A stretch of DNA of 34,103 bases, from the IMG/VR virus record IMGVR_UViG_3300030106_005643, positions 1-34,103 of that record; one strand, 5' to 3'. The notes below the pieces were generated by a model. The model was given only the letters and a program-made list of their open reading frames with translations, was not told the origin of the DNA and ran no database searches. Position 1 is the first letter of the stretch. Every line of letters starts with the position of its first letter. Positions 22,621-34,019 of this stretch are shown piece after piece. The DNA is from a virus. Both the position numbers and the translations under genes were made by a program.

Positions 22621-23448
22621 TTACTCAGTCTTTATCAACTCATCGGCAAAACACCCTCTATACTGGTGTTCGCCTACATGTGTAATTCGGTCAGTTATAA
22701 GAGCATAACACTTTTCTCCAAGTGCTTTCCATCTTTTACAAAAGGCAAAGTCTTCTCCTAAAAAGTTTTTTGTTTCAGGGTCAAACATAGTATCAAAAAA
22801 GTTGTAAAAATGAGGTCTATTTATATACTCTCCATTAATAACAGTCTTTTGAACAATCTCCATTTCAGGATAAGCTTTAATCATTTTTTCAATAACTTCT
22901 CTTTTGATTAACATACATCCTGTAGGAGAGTGGGTTACTTCTATAACACCATCTTTAACTCTTATATCTCTTTCGTTAGAAACTTTCATTGGATATGTAT
23001 GTAAGGCTTTGAATTTTAAATCTTTAACATTTTTAATATCACCTTTATTTAATCTATCCCAAGCTTTATCCCACATAAGTTGTTTAAGTGGATATGGGAC
23101 AGAGATTACTCCTTTATCTGCAGCTATCATTTTCATAATAGATTGATTTTGAAACTCTATATCTGAATCAATAAATAATAAGTGTGTATGATTACTCTCC
23201 ATAAAACTTGATACACAAAGATTACGACCCTGTGTTACTAAACTTGATTTCATGACTTGAAAAGAAGCCACAATATCATTTTTCATACAGAACTTTTGAA
23301 AGTCTAAACATGCTTGAAAGTAATGTATAGAGACTTCACTATGCACAGGTGTTGCTACAAAGATAGAAAATTTTTTAGGTTTTAGTTCTTGTGTTTTAAC
23401 TTTATCAGTTTTATCATTAAACCAAATTGGTTTACTTGGGTCTTGCAT
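22621..23448 (-). CDS. GT-A-fold glycosyltransferase (275 aa)
   Basis: The N-terminal Rossmann-like start is FSIFVATPVHSEVSI, followed by QGRNLCVSSFMES and the metal/sugar-nucleotide-binding DxD at LLFIDSDIEF (D94-S-D96). Later conserved-looking stretches are THSPTGCMLIKREVIEKM and NFLGEDFAFCKRW, with E-D as the usual catalytic-region acidic pair. This layout fits inverting or retaining GT-A enzymes of the Anp1/GT2-like kind. No membrane segment. The start overlaps the GT-B gene by 17 nt. Acceptor unknown: virion protein, modified DNA base or host surface are all possible. Confidence 0.8.
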   Translation of the reverse strand: MQDPSKPIWFNDKTDKVKTQELKPKKFSIFVATPVHSEVSIHYFQACLDFQKFCMKNDIVASFQVMKSSLVTQGRNLCVSSFMESNHTHLLFIDSDIEFQNQSIMKMIAADKGVISVPYPLKQLMWDKAWDRLNKGDIKNVKDLKFKALHTYPMKVSNERDIRVKDGVIEVTHSPTGCMLIKREVIEKMIKAYPEMEIVQKTVINGEYINRPHFYNFFDTMFDPETKNFLGEDFAFCKRWKALGEKCYALITDRITHVGEHQYRGCFADELIKTE

Positions 23449-24367
23449 ATGTCAGTGCTCCTTGTAAAAAAGTAGTCCATTGTTTTCCTATTATCTTCCA
23501 ATTGTAAAAATGGTTATAAAAATTTTGTTGAAATTTTAAATGATTTTGTAGTCCTACAGTATTGATTTGTTGTGGCAACTCATCAATCACACCTGCAAAC
23601 TGTTTTGCTAAATTATTCCAATTATTATCCATGGGCACATAAATAGGAAACTCTGAACAAGTTTCATAAAGCGCTCCGTTGTCCGTTGTTGTTACATACA
23701 AACCACACGCTAAAGCTTCTAGAGCCGATATACAAAAGGACTCCTCCCAAATGTTAGGATAAACAAATGCATCGTAAGTATGTAAGTTATCTAATATATA
23801 ATCATTACTTTTGTAACCAACATAATTTACATTAGGTAATTGTTTAGCTTGATTATATAAAGCTTCGTATTGTTTATCGTTCTGTTTCTCAAAATCAGAT
23901 CCATAAATTTTGGTGCTACTATATACATCTAAGGTTATGTTAGAGCTTTTAATTAATTGCATGGCACCTAAAAGAATAGATAAACCTCTCCAAGGTGTAG
24001 GGTGATAAATTAATCTAATTTTATCTTTCTTTATCATTGGATCTCTTTTTTTAATATCACCTATACCGTTTTTTATAACTGTACATTTATCACAAGGTAA
24101 ATCAAATTTTTTTCTAAATTGTTCGTAATTCCAATGACTGTTAAAAACATAATAGTCATATTTAGCAATCTCTTCTTTCTTTGAAAAAAATTCTTGTAGT
24201 TGAGGTTGGTCAGGAGCCATTTTTTGCCAAAGAATATTTATCTTTGTATTTGATAAAGGTACTCTCCCAGGCACAGATAGACAAATTTGAAACTTTTCTA
24301 ATAAGTCTACAGGCACATTTTTTTGTAAAAATTGATATTGTAATTCTGTTCCGCCTAATGGTTCCAT
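23432..24367 (-). CDS. GT-B-fold glycosyltransferase, GT4-like (311 aa)
   Basis: It begins with EPLGGTELQ, where the GGTE loop is typical of the GT4 N-terminal domain. It continues with YVFNSHWNYEQFRKKF, CTVIKNGIG, IRLIYHPTPWRGLSILLGA (nucleotide-sugar site start) and the E-x7-E signature EESFCISALEALACGLYVTT. The N-terminal domain is shorter than in most GT4 enzymes (total 311 aa), so the fold may be trimmed. It overlaps both neighbours (oxygenase upstream by 1 nt, GT-A downstream), so all three are probably made together. Confidence 0.85.
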   Translation of the reverse strand: MEPLGGTELQYQFLQKNVPVDLLEKFQICLSVPGRVPLSNTKINILWQKMAPDQPQLQEFFSKKEEIAKYDYYVFNSHWNYEQFRKKFDLPCDKCTVIKNGIGDIKKRDPMIKKDKIRLIYHPTPWRGLSILLGAMQLIKSSNITLDVYSSTKIYGSDFEKQNDKQYEALYNQAKQLPNVNYVGYKSNDYILDNLHTYDAFVYPNIWEESFCISALEALACGLYVTTTDNGALYETCSEFPIYVPMDNNWNNLAKQFAGVIDELPQQINTVGLQNHLKFQQNFYNHFYNWKIIGKQWTTFLQGALTYARPK

Positions 24368-24951
24368 TATTTTTCTTTTTTAAAGTTTGCTGCTATTGAT
24401 ACCCTTTCTACACTTGATTTAAAAGGAGAAACTACATGTCTGAGGTGTGCGGGAAATATAAAAAAATCACCTGCGACAGGCATAAAATATTTGTCAGTGA
24501 TTAAACCTTTGCCGTGTTCACCATATATAAACATAATTGATCCTGGTCCACCTTCATAACCATTTACACCTTTACTTTGTTTAGCCTCTTCATGAATTTC
24601 TTGAGGCACTGATAGATATAAAACAGAAGAGTAATCGCAACTAACATGTATATGAGGTGGATTGTAGTCACCTGCTTTCATGTAATTAACCCAAGCCTTA
24701 TCACAAACTAATCTGTTAGGTTTCTTACCATACCAAGTTTCGTGTGCTTTAATAAATCCTCCAAAATATTTTTCTATTATTTGTGTATATGCAGGAGTAT
24801 CAATATGATATTCAGTTTTAAAATGGCCTACTAATTTATGTTCAAAATTTTTCTTTTCATCTTTAATACAAAGCTCAGATAAAGATTTTAAATCTTCTTC
24901 GTTAACTTTTGTATGATAAAGAAGAGGACCCCAAAAATAAACTTTGCCCAT
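24367..24951 (-). CDS. 2OG-Fe(II) oxygenase-like protein, TIGR02466 type (194 aa)
   Basis: Signature residues: AWVNYMKAGDYNPPHIH (H100-x-H102), an insertion, DFFIFPAHLRHVVSPF (distal H172) and ERVSIAANF (R183 for 2-oxoglutarate). It shares the YNPPHxH, IFP and terminal R pattern with the 8691-9320 protein, so the two are paralogues in different modules. It starts at TAATG after the 59-aa gene and its stop touches the GT-B start, placing it in one operon with two glycosyltransferases. Hydroxylation followed by glycosylation is an attractive but untested link. Confidence 0.85.
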   Translation of the reverse strand: MGKVYFWGPLLYHTKVNEEDLKSLSELCIKDEKKNFEHKLVGHFKTEYHIDTPAYTQIIEKYFGGFIKAHETWYGKKPNRLVCDKAWVNYMKAGDYNPPHIHVSCDYSSVLYLSVPQEIHEEAKQSKGVNGYEGGPGSIMFIYGEHGKGLITDKYFMPVAGDFFIFPAHLRHVVSPFKSSVERVSIAANFKKEK

Positions 24952-25627: not shown

Positions 25628-25791
25628 TATGATAAGAAATAGTTAAAGGCATCAGCGTCATTTTTTATATCAGTCTGGTATGAAAAGTTCAACTGCTGTT
25701 GGAGTGTTCTGACAGCTTGTAAAATTTGTCTTTGATCTTCTGCTGAGTATTGTTGTTTTGGTTCAGGTAATACAATTGTAATTCTAGCCAT
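25627..25791 (-). CDS. Small conserved structural-module protein (54 aa)
   Basis: ATG at 25791 overlapping the end of the 727-aa gene by 1 nt, stop at 25627. The sequence MARITIVLPEPKQQYSAEDQ, then QILQAVRTLQQQLNFSY and NDADAFNYFLS, is a type found next to tail genes in many uncultured marine phages. It has a strand-like start, a central helix and an aromatic end. Possibly a tail accessory or chaperone; function unknown. Confidence 0.65.
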   Translation of the reverse strand: MARITIVLPEPKQQYSAEDQRQILQAVRTLQQQLNFSYQTDIKNDADAFNYFLS

Positions 25792-27974
25792 TATCTTCTC
25801 CCGTCTGGTCTTACATCAAATCTAAATGTTCCATATCTCCAGCTCTCATTTAAATTTTCATTTTCTATTTGAACCGCTGCAAGTCTTGCTCTTGCTCGTG
25901 TGTCTATCTTTGTAGTAGTTGAAGATACCGTGAAAGGACCTAGAGGACTTGAGGCTTGTGTGCTACCTTGTGGAAAGGCATTTAAAAAAATTGTTACTTT
26001 TGCATTACCAGCAATTCTCTTAAAGTCAGGCATAAACCTTTTTACACTCATTATAAATTCACCGTCTCCAGGAACTCCTTGTCTTCCGTTCAAATCAAAT
26101 TCACCTGATTTAATAAACGCGGCAATAGCTGTTTCAGTTCCGTCTCCGTTTAATTGGTTTACACCTTTTTCATGTTCATAATAAATTGTAGCTCCATTAG
26201 AAACACCATTAACCACAGGAAAGGTTGGAGTATCTGAAGCGTTAAAATCAGTAGCATATGGTTGCTCGTAAACTGTTGAGCCAACCCAAGTTGTTCTATC
26301 TAATGTGCCTGTGGTCCAAACACCCTCAGCGAAATTGTAAGTAACCACTCTGTTTATTGCATTTGAATCTGCAGTAGCGTAAAACCAATTTATCTCAGAG
26401 TATAGTTCGTTTATTCCTGCATAAACTAATTGACCTGAATTATAATTTATACCAGGATTATTGCCATTAGTTGTAAACACGAAGTCCTCAACTAGACATG
26501 GTAATGATTTTACTGTTCCATCATACACATAAAATCCACCTGTTCTCCCCATCCAATACACAGCACCATTTGCAAACACACCTGCATGCTGTCCTAACAT
26601 ACCATTATTAGAACCAACTTTTAATATTGAGAAAGTAAAAGGTGGTCCTACAAACTGTATTACATAAGAGGCAGTATCAGTTAAAACAAATATATAATCC
26701 TTTCCTTTAAACGCTCCTATGATTTGAGTTCCATCATCTAGCCTGAAAGTTCCTGCAGTGTTTGTTGAAGTGGGTTCGTAAGTGCTTAAACTTTCTTGAT
26801 TAGAAAATCTGATAAACATTTTATCCTGCGTGGTAGCTGAACCAATAGTAGTCTCTGTGCCTAAATGAAATAAATGCCTATCCCTATCTGAAACTATTGT
26901 CATTACAGATTTTGTAGGCATTCCTGTTCCAACAGTGGCCCTTGTTTGCAGTTGATTTGATGCATTAGCGTCCCAAGTAAAAGTTTTCCCATTATGGACT
27001 GTTGCAACTAATATATTTCCAAAATTATCTAATGACCAATTAGCAGGATCTATTGATACTCCTGCTGCTGTAGAGGCATCACCCCAACCAATAAATTCTG
27101 TGATGTCAGTCACAGTTGCCCCGTTATTGTGCTCTGCTGCTGTCGTTCCGTTAATACCTCTAGTAATCCCACTGATCGTGTTTGTCCCTGTGGTGTTAGT
27201 TGTGTAGCTCATGTCTTCAGAACCAATTCTTAATTTACCGTTAGTTAGAGGTAGGTTTGCTGTGCTTGTTAGAACCACTGAAGATGCACCAACAAGCATA
27301 TTACCACCATTGTTAATTGTTGTTGTGGTTTGTGCTATTGTTCGACCACCAAATAAGTAAGTGCCCCAACCATAGCCATAAGTTTGATTAAGTGGACCTA
27401 CGGGTGCATAAGGATTTACATCTAAAGTTCCATCATTTGTAACGCCTGACTTAGACTCAGTGGAAGGCATCGTAATAGTGAAAGTTGTAATTGTTGGGAC
27501 GCTTTGAACTTCGAATAGTTTGTTATCGAAATCAGTCGCGGTAAAAACTGTGTTTGCACCTGTAAATGAGCCTGCGTTTGCAAAGGTAGTTATTTCGCCT
27601 ACCTCTAAATTGTGAGCAGAGGTCGTTGTAATTGTAACTGTTGCTGATCCGTTGGTCGTTGTTATGTCTGCGCCTGTAGAGAAATTATCAGTTTCTAAGG
27701 GTGTTATATCGTAAAATGCACCCTCATAATAAATAATTAACACCTTATCAGTGCCAATGGCTGCGTATCTTTTTCCGTTTGTAGCTGACCAAACATGTTG
27801 AGCCCGGGCAGCGCCTACTAATTTATTATCTACTAATGCTTGCCAACCACCTATTTTTTCAGGTTCTCCATATCTAAATCTTACATTGTCACCATCAACC
27901 CATCTTCCTTCTGCGTCTGAAGGTGTAGATTGTTTATCAAACCCTGGTGCTATAATAACTTTTGATAAAGGCAT
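25791..27974 (-). CDS. Large tail protein, P22 gp10-like stabilisation/tail-hub type (727 aa)
   Basis: The N-terminus PLSKVIIAPGFDKQSTPSDA followed by RWVDGDNVRFRYGEPEKIGG is the signature of a widespread phage structural protein related to the P22 packaged-DNA stabilisation (gp10) family. The body is beta-rich with repeated aromatic/Gly strands (GRTGGFYVYDGTVKSLP, FAEGVWTTGTLDRTTWVGS), as in a beta-propeller. Region 105-170 is Thr/Val-rich and Ig-like, perhaps an inserted domain. A consensus extended -10 box ends 5 nt before the ATG at 27974. Confidence 0.75.
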   Translation of the reverse strand: MPLSKVIIAPGFDKQSTPSDAEGRWVDGDNVRFRYGEPEKIGGWQALVDNKLVGAARAQHVWSATNGKRYAAIGTDKVLIIYYEGAFYDITPLETDNFSTGADITTTNGSATVTITTTSAHNLEVGEITTFANAGSFTGANTVFTATDFDNKLFEVQSVPTITTFTITMPSTESKSGVTNDGTLDVNPYAPVGPLNQTYGYGWGTYLFGGRTIAQTTTTINNGGNMLVGASSVVLTSTANLPLTNGKLRIGSEDMSYTTNTTGTNTISGITRGINGTTAAEHNNGATVTDITEFIGWGDASTAAGVSIDPANWSLDNFGNILVATVHNGKTFTWDANASNQLQTRATVGTGMPTKSVMTIVSDRDRHLFHLGTETTIGSATTQDKMFIRFSNQESLSTYEPTSTNTAGTFRLDDGTQIIGAFKGKDYIFVLTDTASYVIQFVGPPFTFSILKVGSNNGMLGQHAGVFANGAVYWMGRTGGFYVYDGTVKSLPCLVEDFVFTTNGNNPGINYNSGQLVYAGINELYSEINWFYATADSNAINRVVTYNFAEGVWTTGTLDRTTWVGSTVYEQPYATDFNASDTPTFPVVNGVSNGATIYYEHEKGVNQLNGDGTETAIAAFIKSGEFDLNGRQGVPGDGEFIMSVKRFMPDFKRIAGNAKVTIFLNAFPQGSTQASSPLGPFTVSSTTTKIDTRARARLAAVQIENENLNESWRYGTFRFDVRPDGRR

Positions 27975-28001: not shown

Positions 28002-28643
28002 TTATGTAGTCTTGGGTACACCAAGTAAAGGGCGACCATCATTAGATTGAGAGCCATATTGACCGTATGCATCAGCATAATGTAAAAAAACTTGTGTGCA
28101 TATATCACCAGTAAACTTTTCTCTCCAATGTTCTAAATCAACACCATTGTAAACTAACATGTCCCCTTGCTCTAAATTAATAGATATTCCTTTATTATCA
28201 CTAGTAACCGTAGCTCCTTGTTTTCCAGGTTGCCCAACATTTTTGTTTGGCTCTAAATAAATTGGCCACACATCTCCACCTAAATTTAAGGTAGTGGATA
28301 TTTGACAACTTACTCTGTCTTTATGTCTTTCGAGCACAGAGCCTTTTTTATATATTCTAGTGTAAGAATAATTCATTACTAGTTTCATTTCCGTTTCTCT
28401 TTCCATTAATGGATGTAATTTTTTAAGTAATGTTTCCATAGCGAAGTCAGAATAATGAGAATACATATTAGGCACTTGATCGTCTTTCCAAGTTCCTAAC
28501 CAGCCAACCTCAGGGCTTATGCCTTTGCTGTACATATATTTAACAGCATCACATTTTAGATTTAAGTAGTTAAATAAAAATTCTGCCATCTCATTAGAAA
28601 TAGCACCTTTAATAACTTTATATCTATTCTTTTGAAAACTCAT
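28002..28643 (-). CDS. 2OG-Fe(II) oxygenase-like protein (213 aa)
   Basis: Core motif YSYTRIYKKGSVLERHKDRV with H107-x-D109, then CQISTTLNLGGDVWPIYLEP, INLEQGDMLVYNGVDLEHW with distal H172, and QVFLHYADA. H-x-D...H is the standard Fe(II) triad. The 2OG-binding Arg is not in its usual place; the FLHYAD strand has none. The protein type is common in cyanophages and pelagiphages. It has a close but degenerate relative three genes upstream (29342-29875). Overlap with the next gene is 4 nt. Confidence 0.85.
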   Translation of the reverse strand: MSFQKNRYKVIKGAISNEMAEFLFNYLNLKCDAVKYMYSKGISPEVGWLGTWKDDQVPNMYSHYSDFAMETLLKKLHPLMERETEMKLVMNYSYTRIYKKGSVLERHKDRVSCQISTTLNLGGDVWPIYLEPNKNVGQPGKQGATVTSDNKGISINLEQGDMLVYNGVDLEHWREKFTGDICTQVFLHYADAYGQYGSQSNDGRPLLGVPKTT

Positions 28644-29146
28644 CTAATAAACCCGTTAATAGTTAATCTACTATCGTTAATATCATTACCATGATGTCCA
28701 TAAGCACTATGTTTATAGGTGCTATCAAATAAGATTAATCGATTTTGCACAAATTTAAAATCAGTGATTGTATTGTTGTCTTTGCAAAATAGTTTCGTGC
28801 CACTTTTAAGATTTGTCTCACTTATATAAATAATTAAAGAATAAATGCAAGCATCTGTATGTATAAAATCGTCTTTTTCATCGCTCTGTGTTCTTGAGTG
28901 TACATATAAATGAATTTTTTTATCCTCAATGTTAAGTTTATTTAATGTAAAATATTTAACACAAAAATATTTTAATAAAGGGTTACTATGTTCCAGTTCT
29001 AAACTTCTCTCTCCTGGCCATACTGATTTGTTAATATCGTTTTGAACTTCAGGGTGATCTGAATTTTTAAATAATTTTATTTTTTTTGCTTCATTATAAA
29101 TTACCTGAGGTAATTCAAAAAAATTGTCAATTTGTTGAGCGATCAT
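28640..29146 (-). CDS. 2OG-Fe(II) oxygenase-like protein, DUF6445-like (168 aa)
   Basis: Triad residues H96-T-D98 (DDFIHTDACIYSLIIYI), a Gly-Thr-x-Leu-Phe strand (SGTKLFCKDNN), NRLILFDSTYKHSAYG with distal H146, and R160 (DSRLTINGF) for 2-oxoglutarate. All four expected residues are present. The pattern recalls DUF6445, phage and bacterial proteins predicted to be oxygenases. It is sandwiched between two other small genes with 4-nt overlaps in the oxygenase operon. Substrate unknown. Confidence 0.75.
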   Translation of the reverse strand: MIAQQIDNFFELPQVIYNEAKKIKLFKNSDHPEVQNDINKSVWPGERSLELEHSNPLLKYFCVKYFTLNKLNIEDKKIHLYVHSRTQSDEKDDFIHTDACIYSLIIYISETNLKSGTKLFCKDNNTITDFKFVQNRLILFDSTYKHSAYGHHGNDINDSRLTINGFIR

Positions 29147-29352
29147 TTTAATTCTTGCTCATCGTCAGATTTTAAATGTTGTCTAGTGCTAGGATTGTAT
29201 TGATCTAATTCTACATACATCCTAATTAAATGATTACCCATATGTTTCATTCCATCAGCAGAAATCTTAGTGCAACCTTTAAATAAAATTCTAAGTCTTT
29301 CTCTCCATGAAAAACTTATTTCGCAATGATTTTTTTGATTTTTAATAATCAC
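29143..29352 (-). CDS. Small unknown protein within the oxygenase operon (69 aa)
   Basis: N-terminal strand and basic helix (HCEISFSWRERLRILFKG), then a helix (DGMKHMGNHLIRMYVELDQY) and a charged tail. Short proteins with 'SFxWRERxRIxFxG' starts occur in marine phages and cyanobacteria without known function. It overlaps both neighbours by short stretches, so it is translated with the oxygenases and could be an accessory partner. That is speculative. Confidence 0.55.
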   Translation of the reverse strand: MIIKNQKNHCEISFSWRERLRILFKGCTKISADGMKHMGNHLIRMYVELDQYNPSTRQHLKSDDEQELK

Positions 29353-29875
29353 CTACTACTCCATATGTTTCTTTTTTATCTTTTAGATAAAATTTGTTAG
29401 CTCCTTTAGCATCTACATAGTGTAGATTATACTCAAAGTAATAATCACCTTCAAATTCTTTTCTATAAAAATGCTCTTTATAATCATCAAATAATAAAGC
29501 GTGAGAGGGCTCTAAGTCAAATTTTTGTCCTCTTAAATATAATGGCCATGGTTTACCAACCATATCAATTAAACCAATTACAGTATATTCACAAGCAGGT
29601 GATCTTTCATGATATTCATACTCAGCACCTAAAGTATGAACTTTAAGTTCTGAATAAGAACAATATAATTGTTTACCTAAAGTTTTTTCAATACTTGATT
29701 TTTTACTAATCATTAAACTATCTGTGAGTGAGTCAGCATAAAGTCTTGTGTCTTTCGTGGAGCTTTTAGGGTCAAAAAATTTTAAATTATTTCTATGTCG
29801 AATTTTAGTATAATGAGTAAATAATTCTAACTCGTGGTTAGTTAAAAAATTAGGTATTTTTACTAAAGTCCCCAT
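29342..29875 (-). CDS. Degenerate 2OG-oxygenase-like paralogue, metal motif H-E-R (177 aa)
   Basis: Aligning by eye with the 28002 protein: YSELKVHTLGAEYEYHERS against YSYTRIYKKGSVLERHKDR, VGKPWPLYLRG against GGDVWPIYLEP, and DDYKEHFYRKEF against GVDLEHWREKF, ending YNLHYVDA against FLHYADA. The distal His (H135) is kept, but the H-x-D motif reads H89-E90-R91, so the second Fe ligand is missing from its usual position. It may be inactive, use E90, or serve as a regulatory or structural subunit. It overlaps the P4H-like gene by 13 nt. Confidence 0.7.
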   Translation of the reverse strand: MGTLVKIPNFLTNHELELFTHYTKIRHRNNLKFFDPKSSTKDTRLYADSLTDSLMISKKSSIEKTLGKQLYCSYSELKVHTLGAEYEYHERSPACEYTVIGLIDMVGKPWPLYLRGQKFDLEPSHALLFDDYKEHFYRKEFEGDYYFEYNLHYVDAKGANKFYLKDKKETYGVVGDY

Positions 29876-30426
29876 GCTACAATACTATATCTAGTACCCT
29901 CCTCAACAGGCGTTACCGTATGTGGATATAAAAAATTACTTGGCCATACAATTAATCTAGATGATTTAACATTAACAACTTTTTGTTCTTCGGTTAGTGG
30001 ATCTCTAAAACATAAATTTCCACCTTTATAATCATTATTAAGTAATAATATAAAACTCAAAGTTCTTGGGTGTTTATAATAATGGTCTGTATGAAATTTG
30101 TAAAAACCGCCTTTTTCATACTTTAAAGCTTGTATGTCCTTAATAGAGTAAATAAAAGATTCATTTGTATTGAAGTATTTCATATACTCAAGGTGTGCGT
30201 TATAAAAGATTTTATTAAGTAAATTATACCAGTGAACATTAGTTAAACTTGATGACCATCGATATAAATTAAGATTAAATGTTCTTCTAACTTCTAAATT
30301 AACTTGCTCCTCTCCAACTGTAGCTTGATTAAAATCACTTACGCTTAAAACTTTAACTAGTCTTCCTATTGTATCTATAGGTAAAACATCATCTATTGTT
30401 AGTATATATTTATCTAAACTTGTCAT
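29863..30426 (-). CDS. Prolyl-4-hydroxylase-type 2OG-Fe(II) oxygenase (187 aa)
   Basis: Complete active-site set: H112-T-D114 (GGFYKFHTDHYY), then TLSFILLLNNDYKGGNLCFRD (the classic 'YLN..Y.GG.L.F' strand), SSRLIVWPSNFLYPHTVTPV with H169, and R179 (GTRYSIVAWGL). This is the P4Hc domain, which hydroxylates prolyl or other residues using 2-oxoglutarate, O2 and Fe(II). Length is that of a stand-alone catalytic domain. Operon overlaps: 4 nt with the DUF6065-like gene and 13 nt with the degenerate paralogue. Confidence 0.9.
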   Translation of the reverse strand: MTSLDKYILTIDDVLPIDTIGRLVKVLSVSDFNQATVGEEQVNLEVRRTFNLNLYRWSSSLTNVHWYNLLNKIFYNAHLEYMKYFNTNESFIYSIKDIQALKYEKGGFYKFHTDHYYKHPRTLSFILLLNNDYKGGNLCFRDPLTEEQKVVNVKSSRLIVWPSNFLYPHTVTPVEEGTRYSIVAWGL

Positions 30427-31157
30427 TTAAAACTTTTTTTGTTCCAAAATTTATTCTTATATTTATGTAAAAATTCTAAACCGTAAGTAAAAGCATTAAT
30501 ATGCCATTGTTTTAAATCAGTGTTACCTTTTATTTTTAATTTCCAATTATCTCTTTTAAAAGGTATTATTTGAGCTATGGGAGTGCCTTTTTTAATAGTG
30601 GTTTCTAACGAAGGGTATTTATCACCATTTATTACAATAGGGAAATTAATCTCCTTATCAAAAGTATCAGTATCAACAATTCCTGTAATTACATCAAATC
30701 TATCATCCTTGTTATTAAACGGAGATGTAAATAAACAAGAATAACCTGGTGGTGTTTTGATAATCCAAGGACTTATAATTTTGTGTATTCCTAAATTTTT
30801 ATTTTTTTCTAATAAAGGTGATCCCTCTAGTTGAAAAGGTTGATGATATTCAGGTTTTGCCCCTCTCCAATTCATACTAAAAGGAGGATCAATGTTTTCT
30901 GGTATACCTTGAAAACCATCAAGTTCGCCTTTGTCATTTTTAACATTATGTCTAATATGTAAATCAACGGGATTGAAAAAAATATAACCTGCAGTCAAAG
31001 CATCTAAAAAAGGCATACAACCTTTTACAGTTCGATGAAGTGTATCGTGTCTTAATTTTTTAAACCAATCAGGAACATTTGTAGTTGCGGGTTTTGGGAG
31101 ATCATCACCAATTTTGATATATTCTTCGTGTGAGATAAACTCAATGACTTTAGCCAT
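30423..31157 (-). CDS. DUF6065-like protein (244 aa)
   Basis: Features: an N-terminal segment ending NVPDWFKKL, then MNWRGAKPEYH, SPWIIKTPPGYSCLFTSPFN, ITGIVDTDTFDKEINFPIVI and TIKKGTPIAQIIPFKRDNWK. PPG-plus-'GIVDTD' followed by a strand ending in 'IPF' is how I recognise the DUF6065-like phage family, whose role is unknown. It leads the oxygenase operon and has a promoter-like sequence 6 nt before its ATG. A cupin- or dUTPase-like beta fold is possible, but I see no catalytic signature. Confidence 0.55.
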   Translation of the reverse strand: MAKVIEFISHEEYIKIGDDLPKPATTNVPDWFKKLRHDTLHRTVKGCMPFLDALTAGYIFFNPVDLHIRHNVKNDKGELDGFQGIPENIDPPFSMNWRGAKPEYHQPFQLEGSPLLEKNKNLGIHKIISPWIIKTPPGYSCLFTSPFNNKDDRFDVITGIVDTDTFDKEINFPIVINGDKYPSLETTIKKGTPIAQIIPFKRDNWKLKIKGNTDLKQWHINAFTYGLEFLHKYKNKFWNKKSFK

Positions 31158-31163
31158 TAAAGT

Positions 31164-31192
31164 TATATATACGATATTACGGAACTCGTAAA
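31164..31192 (-). promoter_or_regulatory. Candidate promoter, near-leaderless, for the oxygenase operon
   Basis: On the minus strand TTTACG (31192-31187), a 17-nt spacer and TATATA (31169-31164), then ACTTTA and the ATG at 31157. The -35 match is only 4 of 6 and the region is AT-rich, so the call is tentative. It sits at the boundary between tail and oxygenase genes, where a separate start would be sensible. Confidence 0.35.
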
Positions 31193-31662
31193 GGACTTAT
31201 TGCGTTGAAACCTTGATCACTCAACAGTTTCCATATTGGCATAGTTTTAAAAGGATCTTCTTCCGTTCCTGAACCATAATTTACTTCCAACTCCATGTCA
31301 GGAAGATTATCTATTATATTTTGTATTTCTGCGTTTCTTGGGTGATTAGGACAATTTTTTGTAAATTGTTCAAGCTCTTGTATATAGATTGATACTAAAG
31401 CTTTTCCTTCATCTGCATTTCTAACCCAATCCATAGTGCCATCTGTTCTTCTTTGAGCCATGTTAACCCAACTTGTTATTACAGTTCTATCTTCGTTCAT
31501 GACAGGTTTTTGTTCTGTATTACAAACTCTGTACATTTCTTCTTCTGTAACATCTATAATATTGTAATCATTAGTAGAGCAGTGCATTGAGTCTCTTTCA
31601 GCATCATTTAAAGCAGCTTTGTAAACTTCTCCGCTAACTTTCTCAACAAATAAATAAGCCAT
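31177..31662 (-). CDS. Tail-fibre-adjacent protein of unknown function (161 aa)
   Basis: A soluble acidic protein with AYLFVEKVSGEVYKAALNDA at the start, EEEMYRVCN, WVNMAQRRTDGTMDW and a long helix (GKALVSIYIQELEQFTKNCP). It follows directly after the tail-fibre gene, and AGGAG lies upstream of its ATG. Its position is that of a fibre-assembly chaperone or a tail accessory protein, but no family is recognised. Confidence 0.55.
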   Translation of the reverse strand: MAYLFVEKVSGEVYKAALNDAERDSMHCSTNDYNIIDVTEEEMYRVCNTEQKPVMNEDRTVITSWVNMAQRRTDGTMDWVRNADEGKALVSIYIQELEQFTKNCPNHPRNAEIQNIIDNLPDMELEVNYGSGTEEDPFKTMPIWKLLSDQGFNAISPLRVP

Positions 31663-31664
31663 GT

Positions 31665-32891
31665 TTATGCTCCTGTATTTTCAAATATTAATATTGCACC
31701 AGGTCTTCCTGATGTTGGAGGATTATTAGAGTTTGGTCCACTAGTTCCACTCGCTTTTACATCATACATGAATTGGAAAGGAATAGATTCTTGTCCTTCA
31801 AAGTGTGCTCCAGGAGCAGTTCCAGGGTTAGTTAAATTTCCACCATTGGCTTGTCCAATCGTAGCTAAATTAGTAGCTCCTCCTGCTTGTCCGTTTTGAG
31901 CTCCTCCTGCACCTATAGTGTAGGGTTGTGAGAAAGGTTGTGATATAGGGGCTCCAAAAAAACCAAAACCTCCTCTTTGTCCTGATCTTCCTACTGCAGG
32001 TGGTTGGTTTGGACCTACAATTACTCCCCCCGCTGAACCACCTACTATATAAGCTCCAATGAAATTTGCGTTAGCGCTAGCAGTGTAAGTTCCTGAATCT
32101 GGACCTTGTTTGTTAAAAATAGGTTCAAAGTTTCCTCCGCCTGCAGTTCCAGAACTTGCTGCAGTTATTCTTCCCTGCGCATCAACAGTGATACTTGAAA
32201 GAGTGTAAGATCCTGCAGTAACAGCAGTGTCCGCCAGTTGGTCAGCACCTACAGCGTCATCTGCAATTTTTGCTGTAGTAACATTTTTGTTAGAAATTTT
32301 TGCTGTTAAAATAGCGTTGTCTGCTATTTTAGCGCTCGTTACAGCATTTGAAGAAATATTATTAGCACGAACAGCATTTGCAGCTAATTTATTTGTTGTA
32401 ATGTTAGACTGTAAAATTTTCGCTGTTGTTACAGCGTCAGAAGCTATTTGTGCAGCTGCTATTGTACCACCTAAAGTATCTAAAGATACTTCTTTTAAAT
32501 TTGTTCCGTCAGCATAAGCAGCAAATATTGCAGCTCTGTCAGGAGAAAAACCTGACCCTGAGGCTGTTTTAATTGTTAAATTAGTTGGGTTTGTTAATCC
32601 TGTGCAATCAAATATATAAAATTTTTCAATGCCGTCAGGTATTGTGCAAACTGTGCTAGCAGCAATTGAAGCTGTAGCAAATTTAATTACCATGTTTCTA
32701 GCGTTAGATAATGTAGCGTTAGACATTGCAAGAGCTAAAGTTCCACCACTAGATAGTGTTACTTCTTCAAAACCTGCAATCGCTTGTTGAACTAAATTTA
32801 AGTTTGTATTTGTTTTATCACCCCAAGTACCAGCGTTTTCGCCAGTTACCATTAATTCGAGTTTTAGATCTGTAGAAAAACTTGATGCCAT
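31665..32891 (-). CDS. Tail-fibre-like protein with ten-residue repeats and Gly-rich tip (408 aa)
   Basis: The N-terminal domain (SSFSTDLKLELMVTGENAGTWG) is typical of phage tail-fibre or baseplate-attached proteins. Residues 151-224 contain seven regular ten-residue repeats of the form [S/N]-A-V-T-T-A-K-I-A-D, likely a triple-stranded fibre shaft. The motif GSYTLSSITVDAQGRITAAS follows, a hallmark of fibre proteins. The C-terminal third is Gly/Pro/Asn-rich (GRSGQRGGFGFFGAP), as in receptor-binding tips. AGGAGATAT lies upstream of the ATG. Host-receptor binding is the expected role. Confidence 0.8.
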   Translation of the reverse strand: MASSFSTDLKLELMVTGENAGTWGDKTNTNLNLVQQAIAGFEEVTLSSGGTLALAMSNATLSNARNMVIKFATASIAASTVCTIPDGIEKFYIFDCTGLTNPTNLTIKTASGSGFSPDRAAIFAAYADGTNLKEVSLDTLGGTIAAAQIASDAVTTAKILQSNITTNKLAANAVRANNISSNAVTSAKIADNAILTAKISNKNVTTAKIADDAVGADQLADTAVTAGSYTLSSITVDAQGRITAASSGTAGGGNFEPIFNKQGPDSGTYTASANANFIGAYIVGGSAGGVIVGPNQPPAVGRSGQRGGFGFFGAPISQPFSQPYTIGAGGAQNGQAGGATNLATIGQANGGNLTNPGTAPGAHFEGQESIPFQFMYDVKASGTSGPNSNNPPTSGRPGAILIFENTGA

Positions 32892-32912: not shown

Positions 32913-34019
32913 TTAAGCTGCTTTATCAACCTCAGTCCAAACATTGTTTACGCCTGGGTCGATTTCGCTCCATGCAGTTACATTAGTTGAACCGATATTT
33001 GTTGTCAACCCTATACCAGAAACAGGAGTAGATGCAGTTCCCGTGGCAATTACACTTCCGATTGAGGTAGCTAATGAACCAGCTGTAGTTACAGGATAAA
33101 TACTTGCCTGCGTAGCAGTTCCCATAGCAAAAGTTGCTAATTGACCAGTTACAGATTCAACGGTTGTCTGAATTAGAGTTATAGAACCTAAAGACATGGA
33201 AGCAGAAATTCCTGTTACATCCACAGGTATTTTTGGTTCAGGAACAACAGTTCCTAAAGAGCCTGTTAAGGCTTGCCCTGTTACGCTTTCATTTGTTGAC
33301 TGCTCTAATGTTTGTTGGCCTAGAGATAAATTCATAGCGTCTTCGCCAACAAAGACTGTTACATTACCGTCAATAGTAATTGATTCTAAACCTTGAGTTA
33401 TTGTTAAAAGATTTAATCCTGTTTGGTTTATTACATGGTCAACTTGCACTGAAACACTTCCTATAGAAGAAGTCATTGATTGACCTTGAGCTAAAGCAGA
33501 AAAAGCTCCGCCCCAAACTCTATTACCCCATGTGCCTCGACCCCAACCAACTTCAATTAAAAATTCAGGATCGATAGTAGTTGAACCTGCACTTGAAGAT
33601 AAAGAGCTACCTGTTACGCTAACATTTGCGTCACCTGCCGTGTCGTGCGCTGAACCTAAAGTAGAGCTTAAAGCTTGACCTGTTACAGCAACATCAGTTC
33701 CAATTTCTATTCCAGCTAAAGTTCCAACAGAGGCGGTTAAATTTTGTCCAGTCGGAGAATCAGTTGAACCAAAAGCAACAGTTGCACTTCCTTGAGATAA
33801 AGCTAAAGATTGACCTAAAGCGAAAACATCACCAGCAACACCCCAAGCGTTTTCGTTCCAAGTTAATCTACCCCAACCCTCATTAACTTCAGCATCCGCT
33901 ACTTCAGTACCTATTGATGTTGATAAACTTCCTGCAGATGAAACTGCAATGACAGTATCCGCTTGATCACCCCAAGCGTTTTCTCCCCATATACCTTGAC
34001 CCCAATTATTATTAGCCAT
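32913..34019 (-). CDS. Repeat-rich structural protein with WG modules (368 aa)
   Basis: Three tryptophan-glycine modules (residues 5-17, 48-60 and 157-170; NWGQGIWGENAWG, GWGRLTWNENAWG, GWGRGTWGNRVWG) are interspersed with about a dozen short Val-Thr-Gly-Gln-x-Leu-x-x-x-x-Gly-x units. Such Gly/Ser/Thr-rich proteins next to tail-fibre genes are widespread in marine phages and probably virion surface or fibre components. No signal peptide or enzyme motif. AGAGG lies upstream of the ATG, itself inside a short leader ORF. Confidence 0.7.
   Translation of the reverse strand: MANNNWGQGIWGENAWGDQADTVIAVSSAGSLSTSIGTEVADAEVNEGWGRLTWNENAWGVAGDVFALGQSLALSQGSATVAFGSTDSPTGQNLTASVGTLAGIEIGTDVAVTGQALSSTLGSAHDTAGDANVSVTGSSLSSSAGSTTIDPEFLIEVGWGRGTWGNRVWGGAFSALAQGQSMTSSIGSVSVQVDHVINQTGLNLLTITQGLESITIDGNVTVFVGEDAMNLSLGQQTLEQSTNESVTGQALTGSLGTVVPEPKIPVDVTGISASMSLGSITLIQTTVESVTGQLATFAMGTATQASIYPVTTAGSLATSIGSVIATGTASTPVSGIGLTTNIGSTNVTAWSEIDPGVNNVWTEVDKAA

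Follow-up and report, generated by a model that had tools for sequence, protein, structure and literature searches.

The 34103 bases analysed here, referred to as the window, make up the IMG/VR virus record IMGVR_UViG_3300030106_005643, which by the relatedness of its PolA and tail protein is an HTVC023P-type pelagiphage contig. Between positions 28002 and 31157 it carries a compact cassette of six genes, designated DUF6065, ox5, ox4, sm, ox2 and ox1. The region is best explained as a tail-fibre-linked hydroxylation and decoration module, a reading to which we give an even chance. Judged from the sequences, the function with the best support is that the cassette hydroxylates a virion protein, for which the tail fibre is the likeliest predicted candidate. 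A fuller version is put forward more tentatively, in which the region is a swappable cassette for post-translational modification of the receptor-binding fibre. Host recognition would then be diversified chemically by a heteromeric hydroxylase, in which pseudoenzyme subunits are retained, together with exchangeable enzymes that decorate hydroxyls. The finding itself is real, and it is broader than first described.

Gene order of the cassette in the window and its relatives

All six genes lie on the minus strand and occupy exactly 28002-31157, as the first-pass annotation had described. In the list of open reading frames (ORFs) of the window, frames of 213, 168, 69, 177, 187 and 244 aa follow one another from position 28002 upwards, with overlaps of 4, 4, 11, 13 and 4 nt; the order of transcription is DUF6065, ox5, ox4, sm, ox2, ox1. 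Because all six have homologues in relatives, they are regarded as real genes. Their placement was also described correctly: the cassette is flanked on one side by a gene designated n (31177-31662, minus strand) and the tail-fibre genes, and on the other by the gene of a large tail or virion protein of 727 aa (25791-27974, minus strand; phrog_3287). A promoter that had been proposed just before the first ATG was not borne out. The number of promoter-like sites, 23, is at the chance level of shuffled sequences (21.4 +/- 5.1), and the ATG at 31157 is not directly preceded by any such site on the minus strand. As the gap between n and the first cassette gene is 19 nt and the neighbouring genes all have the same orientation, the cassette seems to belong to a longer late operon.

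To compare the cassette among HTVC023P-type phages, 80 loci were collected via the downstream tail protein, which serves as a cassette-independent anchor. Searches of viral contigs with the single sequences of ox4 and ox2 returned no relatives, whereas profile and anchor searches did find them. Among loci reaching far enough, the usual order is fibre-fibre-n-(DUF6065)-ox5-ox4-sm-(variable slot)-tail, and the 13-nt overlap of ox5 and ox4 is found in 46/61 loci. Fibre type and cassette type are associated, as illustrated by 44 informative loci. With a type I fibre, ox5 and ox4 are present on the same strand in 28/28 loci and DUF6065 in 20/28; the other 16 loci have this core in five cases and DUF6065 in none (Fisher p 6e-7 for ox5 and ox4, a nominal value since the loci are related). 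Three of these five core-bearing loci (L043, L095 and L099) contain a short fibre fragment only and may be type I as well. In relatives with shorter fibres the oxygenase sets are reversed or different, and other fibre types pair with other oxygenase cassettes, even where the tail protein is closely similar (e.g., L037).

The six genes had been proposed to form one functional system, for which conservation of gene order was suggested as a check. This holds for a core of ox5, ox4 and sm, usually accompanied by DUF6065, the order and junctions of which are kept across relatives that are about 50% divergent. It does not hold for all six genes. The small partner sm (29143-29352, minus strand; 69 aa, GTG start, no match in Pfam or PHROG) has a homologue after ox4 in most type I loci. 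In contrast, the better homologues of ox2 in relatives are located elsewhere, some of them downstream of the tail protein, ox1 is at the position it has in the window an extra gene that is common to few relatives, and DUF6065 is missing from 8/28 cassettes that are otherwise alike.

The core order recurs in a second group of marine phages, where DUF6065-ox5-ox4 usually faces n, collar and fibre genes. Searches gave many contigs of this group, and among the newly fetched loci 84 have ox5 and ox4 next after DUF6065; in approximately 30 others the gene after DUF6065 is n or a single unassigned gene that precedes n. A member of the group, L107, a phage-like contig on a single-cell alphaproteobacterial assembly, has DUF6065-ox5-ox4 facing collar and fibre genes; both L107 and L106, which is filed under Maricaulis, carry the cassette and look like phage sequence. 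In cyanophage S-T4, ox4 is fused to ox5 in one ORF of 386 aa. Pelagiphage HTVC008M has five oxygenase-like genes in series, and in S-RIM44 an ox4-like gene lies inside a run that starts with two tryptophan halogenases.

Oxygenase folds and the lost iron site of ox4

Three of the proteins, ox5, ox1 and ox2, contain the HxD...H triad of the 2-oxoglutarate (2OG)-Fe(II) oxygenase superfamily, and a corresponding activity is predicted for them. The prolyl 4-hydroxylase (P4H)-like ox5 (29863-30426, minus strand; 187 aa) matches PF13640 with 62.4 bits at a cut-off of 27. Its triad, H112/D114/H169, is 100% conserved in 52 relatives and is complemented by R179. The accessory and mobile ox2 (28640-29146, minus strand; 168 aa) is oxygenase-like and reaches 24.1 bits with PF13640, below the cut-off of 27. 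Its triad, H96/D98/H146, which is accompanied by R160, is kept in those homologues that cover this part of the protein. The last gene, ox1 (28002-28643, minus strand; 213 aa; phrog_2954, 4.9e-45), has an intact triad at H107/D109/H172. Its AlphaFold2 model (predicted local distance difference test, pLDDT, 92) gives 563 matches in the PDB at E <= 0.001, those listed being largely 2OG oxygenases with the PHD and P4H prolyl hydroxylases matching best. The predicted fold of ox1 is a double-stranded beta-helix. When the ox1/ox4 alignment was used as a profile against the PDB, no match was obtained.

In PHROG, phrog_2954 is labelled 'ferrochelatase'. This identity was rejected for ox1 and ox4, as no ferrochelatase occurs among the 50 PDB matches listed for the ox1 model. 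Since that model matches prolyl hydroxylases, the label is misleading for both proteins, and for phrog_2954 as a family it appears to be wrong. The same label is attached to phrog_3531, which matches ox4-like and ox5-like proteins alike.

The fourth protein, ox4 (29342-29875, minus strand; 177 aa; phrog_2954, 4.7e-17), is a member of the ox1 family and a probable pseudoenzyme, with H89, R91 and F136 at the triad positions. Thus, of the four oxygenases initially counted in this region, three keep the triad and one is a family member without the iron-binding residues. In a set of 180 family members, including ox1 of the window, the triad is intact in 177 and lost in the window (H, R, F), in L039 (K, R, C) and in L193 (F, K, V). 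Among sequences at the ox4 position it is kept in 50/52, the exceptions being the window and L039. An intact extra paralogue ox1 accompanies the loss in two of the three cases, namely the window and L193, the latter having the arrangement of the window minus ox2. The cassette of L039 is without an obvious replacement paralogue, so a takeover of the activity by ox1 can be proposed only tentatively. Between the window and L193, ox4 is 46.6% identical, compared to 63-68% for DUF6065, ox5 and ox1. Codon position 2 differs least in this ox4 pair (0.28 versus 0.43 and 0.42), a pattern consistent with relaxed yet continuing constraint at the protein level.

Link to the tail fibre and competing explanations

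The fibre gene next to n (31665-32891, minus strand) matches phrog_31104 and tail-fibre PHROGs, and its product has a variable C-terminal tip at about residues 240-408, which is Gly-rich like other fibre tips. Pairwise protein distances were compared across 24 loci. Those of the C-terminal half of the fibre correlate with r 0.57 for ox5 and 0.47 for ox4, and after controlling for the tail protein these values are 0.53 and 0.44. The corresponding values are 0.36 and 0.08 for the N-terminal half, and 0.34 and 0.20 for the tail protein. Oxygenase divergence may be tied more closely to the Gly-rich tip than to the fibre base or the tail tube, which is suggestive as the bootstrap intervals of the tip-versus-base and tip-versus-tail differences include zero. 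The gene n encodes a highly divergent protein of about 150 aa (mean pairwise distance 0.815; r 0.64 with the fibre tip) and lies directly after the fibre gene; its product is probably a fibre-specific assembly factor. Upstream of the fibre, ORF prediction and synteny indicate a second fibre-like structural gene (32913-34019, minus strand).

The variable slot of the cassette is occupied mostly by further oxygenases. Among 42 slot proteins left unassigned, PF13640 matches 16 and PF13759 matches 15, two sets that may overlap. Others are two Nol-like carbamoyltransferases (L037 and L092), a sulfotransferase (L028) and a glycosyltransferase (L054). Both Nol-like O-carbamoyltransferase genes (L037, 5274-6707; L092, 6154-7584) are in short-fibre loci. 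Slot transferases acting on hydroxyls would fit hydroxylation as a first step. Downstream of the tail protein, a second accessory cluster (22621-24951, minus strand) encodes a 2OG oxygenase (24367-24951; PF13759), a glycosyltransferase (23432-24367; PF00534) and an Anp1-like protein (22621-23448), and both glycosyltransferase-like genes are present in 24/24 loci examined.

As the cassette adjoins the fibre and tends to vary with it, it probably decorates the fibre, and its location within the late run of fibre and tail genes argues for this as well. The same is true of the pairing of type I fibres with ox5 and ox4, the recurrence of the core beside fibre genes in the second group, the ox4-ox5 fusion in S-T4, the enzymes at the slot, the resemblance of ox1 to protein hydroxylases and the precedent of a prolyl 4-hydroxylase in the virus PBCV-1. 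In such a module, ox5 and a partner of the ox4/ox1 type would probably form a two-subunit protein hydroxylase using Fe(II), O2 and 2OG. Its substrate would be among the late virion proteins, with the variable tip of the adjacent fibre as the likeliest. In the window, ox4 would have been retained as a partner without catalysis of its own, the activity coming from the inserted paralogue ox1. DUF6065, with a predicted dUTPase-like fold but no intact dUTPase motifs, would be an accessory that is often present and may serve in binding or as an adaptor. The extra slot enzymes and the two downstream glycosyltransferase-like genes may decorate the resulting hydroxyls and thereby alter receptor recognition.

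Several points weigh against a fibre-modifying role. Firstly, to our knowledge no hydroxylated residue is known in these virions. Secondly, fibre and cassette are adjacent, and joint transfer by linkage could mimic co-function, to which the bootstrap intervals given above can be added. Thirdly, the pseudoenzyme reading is based on three sequences. Fourthly, the downstream glycosyltransferase-like genes are there whatever the cassette type. Lastly, in cyanophages S-RIM4 and Sf-CH8 the DUF6065 gene is remote from tail genes, and bacterial DUF6065 genes (L108-L185, mostly alphaproteobacterial) are, in the loci read closely, near sigma/anti-sigma-like genes and not near oxygenases. These bacterial neighbourhoods were uninformative, and ORF picking was unreliable in high-GC genomes.

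The main alternative, which we consider unlikely, is that the oxygenases are auxiliary metabolic or host-targeting proteins, acting by 2OG drawdown, on nitrogen or iron physiology or by hydroxylation of host proteins, and that the slot beside the fibre is a tolerant insertion hotspot. Published passages point in this direction: oxygenases of cyanophages have been read as modulators of 2OG (PMC3037559), colocated auxiliary metabolic genes (AMGs) are described in HTVC023P-type phages (PMC9599517), and host iron genes are up during HTVC027P infection (PMC12753301). Moreover, an EF-Tu prolyl hydroxylase (4iw3) is among the close folds of the ox1 model, and ox2-type genes occur elsewhere in relatives. 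However, a random hotspot would not preserve the succession of genes and a 13-nt junction among relatives that are about 50% divergent, nor would it pair specific cassettes with specific fibres and recur beside the fibres of the second group.

A quite improbable reading places the target in nucleotides or DNA, with DUF6065 as a divergent protein binding or hydrolysing dNTPs and the oxygenases acting on bases. It derives from the first cassette gene (30423-31157, minus strand; 244 aa), the product of which matches PF19541 with 28.1 bits (cut-off 26.6) as well as phrog_7084. The AlphaFold2 model (pLDDT 84) has a predicted beta-clip fold resembling dUTPase, and dUTPases account for all 50 PDB matches listed, with E values of about 2e-3 and weaker. 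The protein aligns with dUTPase motifs 3 and 4, a weak profile match (E 2.7). In motif 2, however, RSG is replaced by PLNN, the catalytic Asp is D in 26/35 sequences, and there is no Pfam dUTPase match. A functional dUTPase was ruled out on these grounds, and DUF6065 is, by its model and motifs, predicted to have a dUTPase-like fold without being a dUTPase. In HF1, HRTV-15 and S-RIM4 (L105, L188 and L186) the gene also has ribonucleotide reductase genes nearby, which hints at a nucleotide-related role; in halophages it adjoins adhesin or fibre genes at the same time. The ox1 model, in turn, fits protein hydroxylases best, the Pfam scan gave no TET/JBP match, and the cassette genes lie in the late structural region. 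A tandem of three DUF6065 genes occurs on a larger phage contig (L021, 7041-9496). No paper was found in a literature search on DUF6065.

Least probable is that fibre, n and cassette simply move as one recombination block while the oxygenases have a separate, unlinked role: the genes are contiguous and the bootstrap intervals include zero, but ox4 is usually nearer to the tail protein than to the tip and yet correlates more weakly with the tail protein, and the association holds in the second group despite the inverted orientation.

Relation to known systems and significance

The top match of the window's PolA is HTVC023P (61.6% identity over 99%), and the top matches of the 727-aa tail protein include HTVC027P and HTVC023P (55-57%). 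For HTVC023P-type phages, eight non-orthologous 2OG-Fe(II) oxygenases have been reported, often colocated with 'ferrochelatases' (Wittmers et al., 2022; PMC9599517). In the relevant passages, the oxygenases are treated as metabolic genes and the ferrochelatases as true ones, the proteins are judged unsuitable for phylogeny, and no functional test is reported. These AMG clusters resemble the present cassette in phage type, gene families and colocation. A link to the fibre, a fusion or a loss of the triad is not mentioned in the passages, and the terms 'DUF' and 'hydroxyl' do not occur in the main text. Many 2OG-Fe(II) oxygenase genes are also found in cyanomyophages, for which modulation of 2OG and nitrogen or DNA repair was suggested (Sullivan et al., 2010; PMC3037559). 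These genes and the run in HTVC008M are similar in consisting of several oxygenases of related families, but the phages are myoviruses and no DUF6065-ox5-ox4 triad is annotated in the regions viewed. The initial statement that no system of this make-up had been described therefore needs qualification: colocation was published, while the passages of the two papers contain neither the link to the tail fibre nor the fold of DUF6065 nor the pseudoenzyme.

More distant parallels exist. EGLN3-like oxygenases are widespread in phages of marine bacteria according to the Phold study. The PHD2/EGLN proteins and bacterial P4Hs (Pseudomonas putida, EF-Tu) share the predicted fold and the triad with ox1 at 10-19% identity. 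The algal virus PBCV-1 likewise encodes a prolyl 4-hydroxylase, and there is evidence of hydroxyproline in its proteins (Eriksson, 1999, cited in PMC9301287), a case with no phage tail-fibre link. The dUTPase family is similar to DUF6065 in predicted fold and in motifs 3 and 4, and differs in motif 2, the Asp and the family match. A literature search for hydroxylation or decoration of phage tail fibres found no direct report.

The new results that carry most weight are the conserved triad, the ox4-ox5 fusion, the loss of an active site and the reassigned folds. In marine phages, oxygenase genes occur widely and have hitherto been read as genes for host metabolism. If the fibre is indeed modified, the misleading 'ferrochelatase' annotation in phage databases would need correcting, and chemical decoration would add a second layer to the variation in receptor binding among phages that infect SAR11, the ocean's most abundant bacteria.

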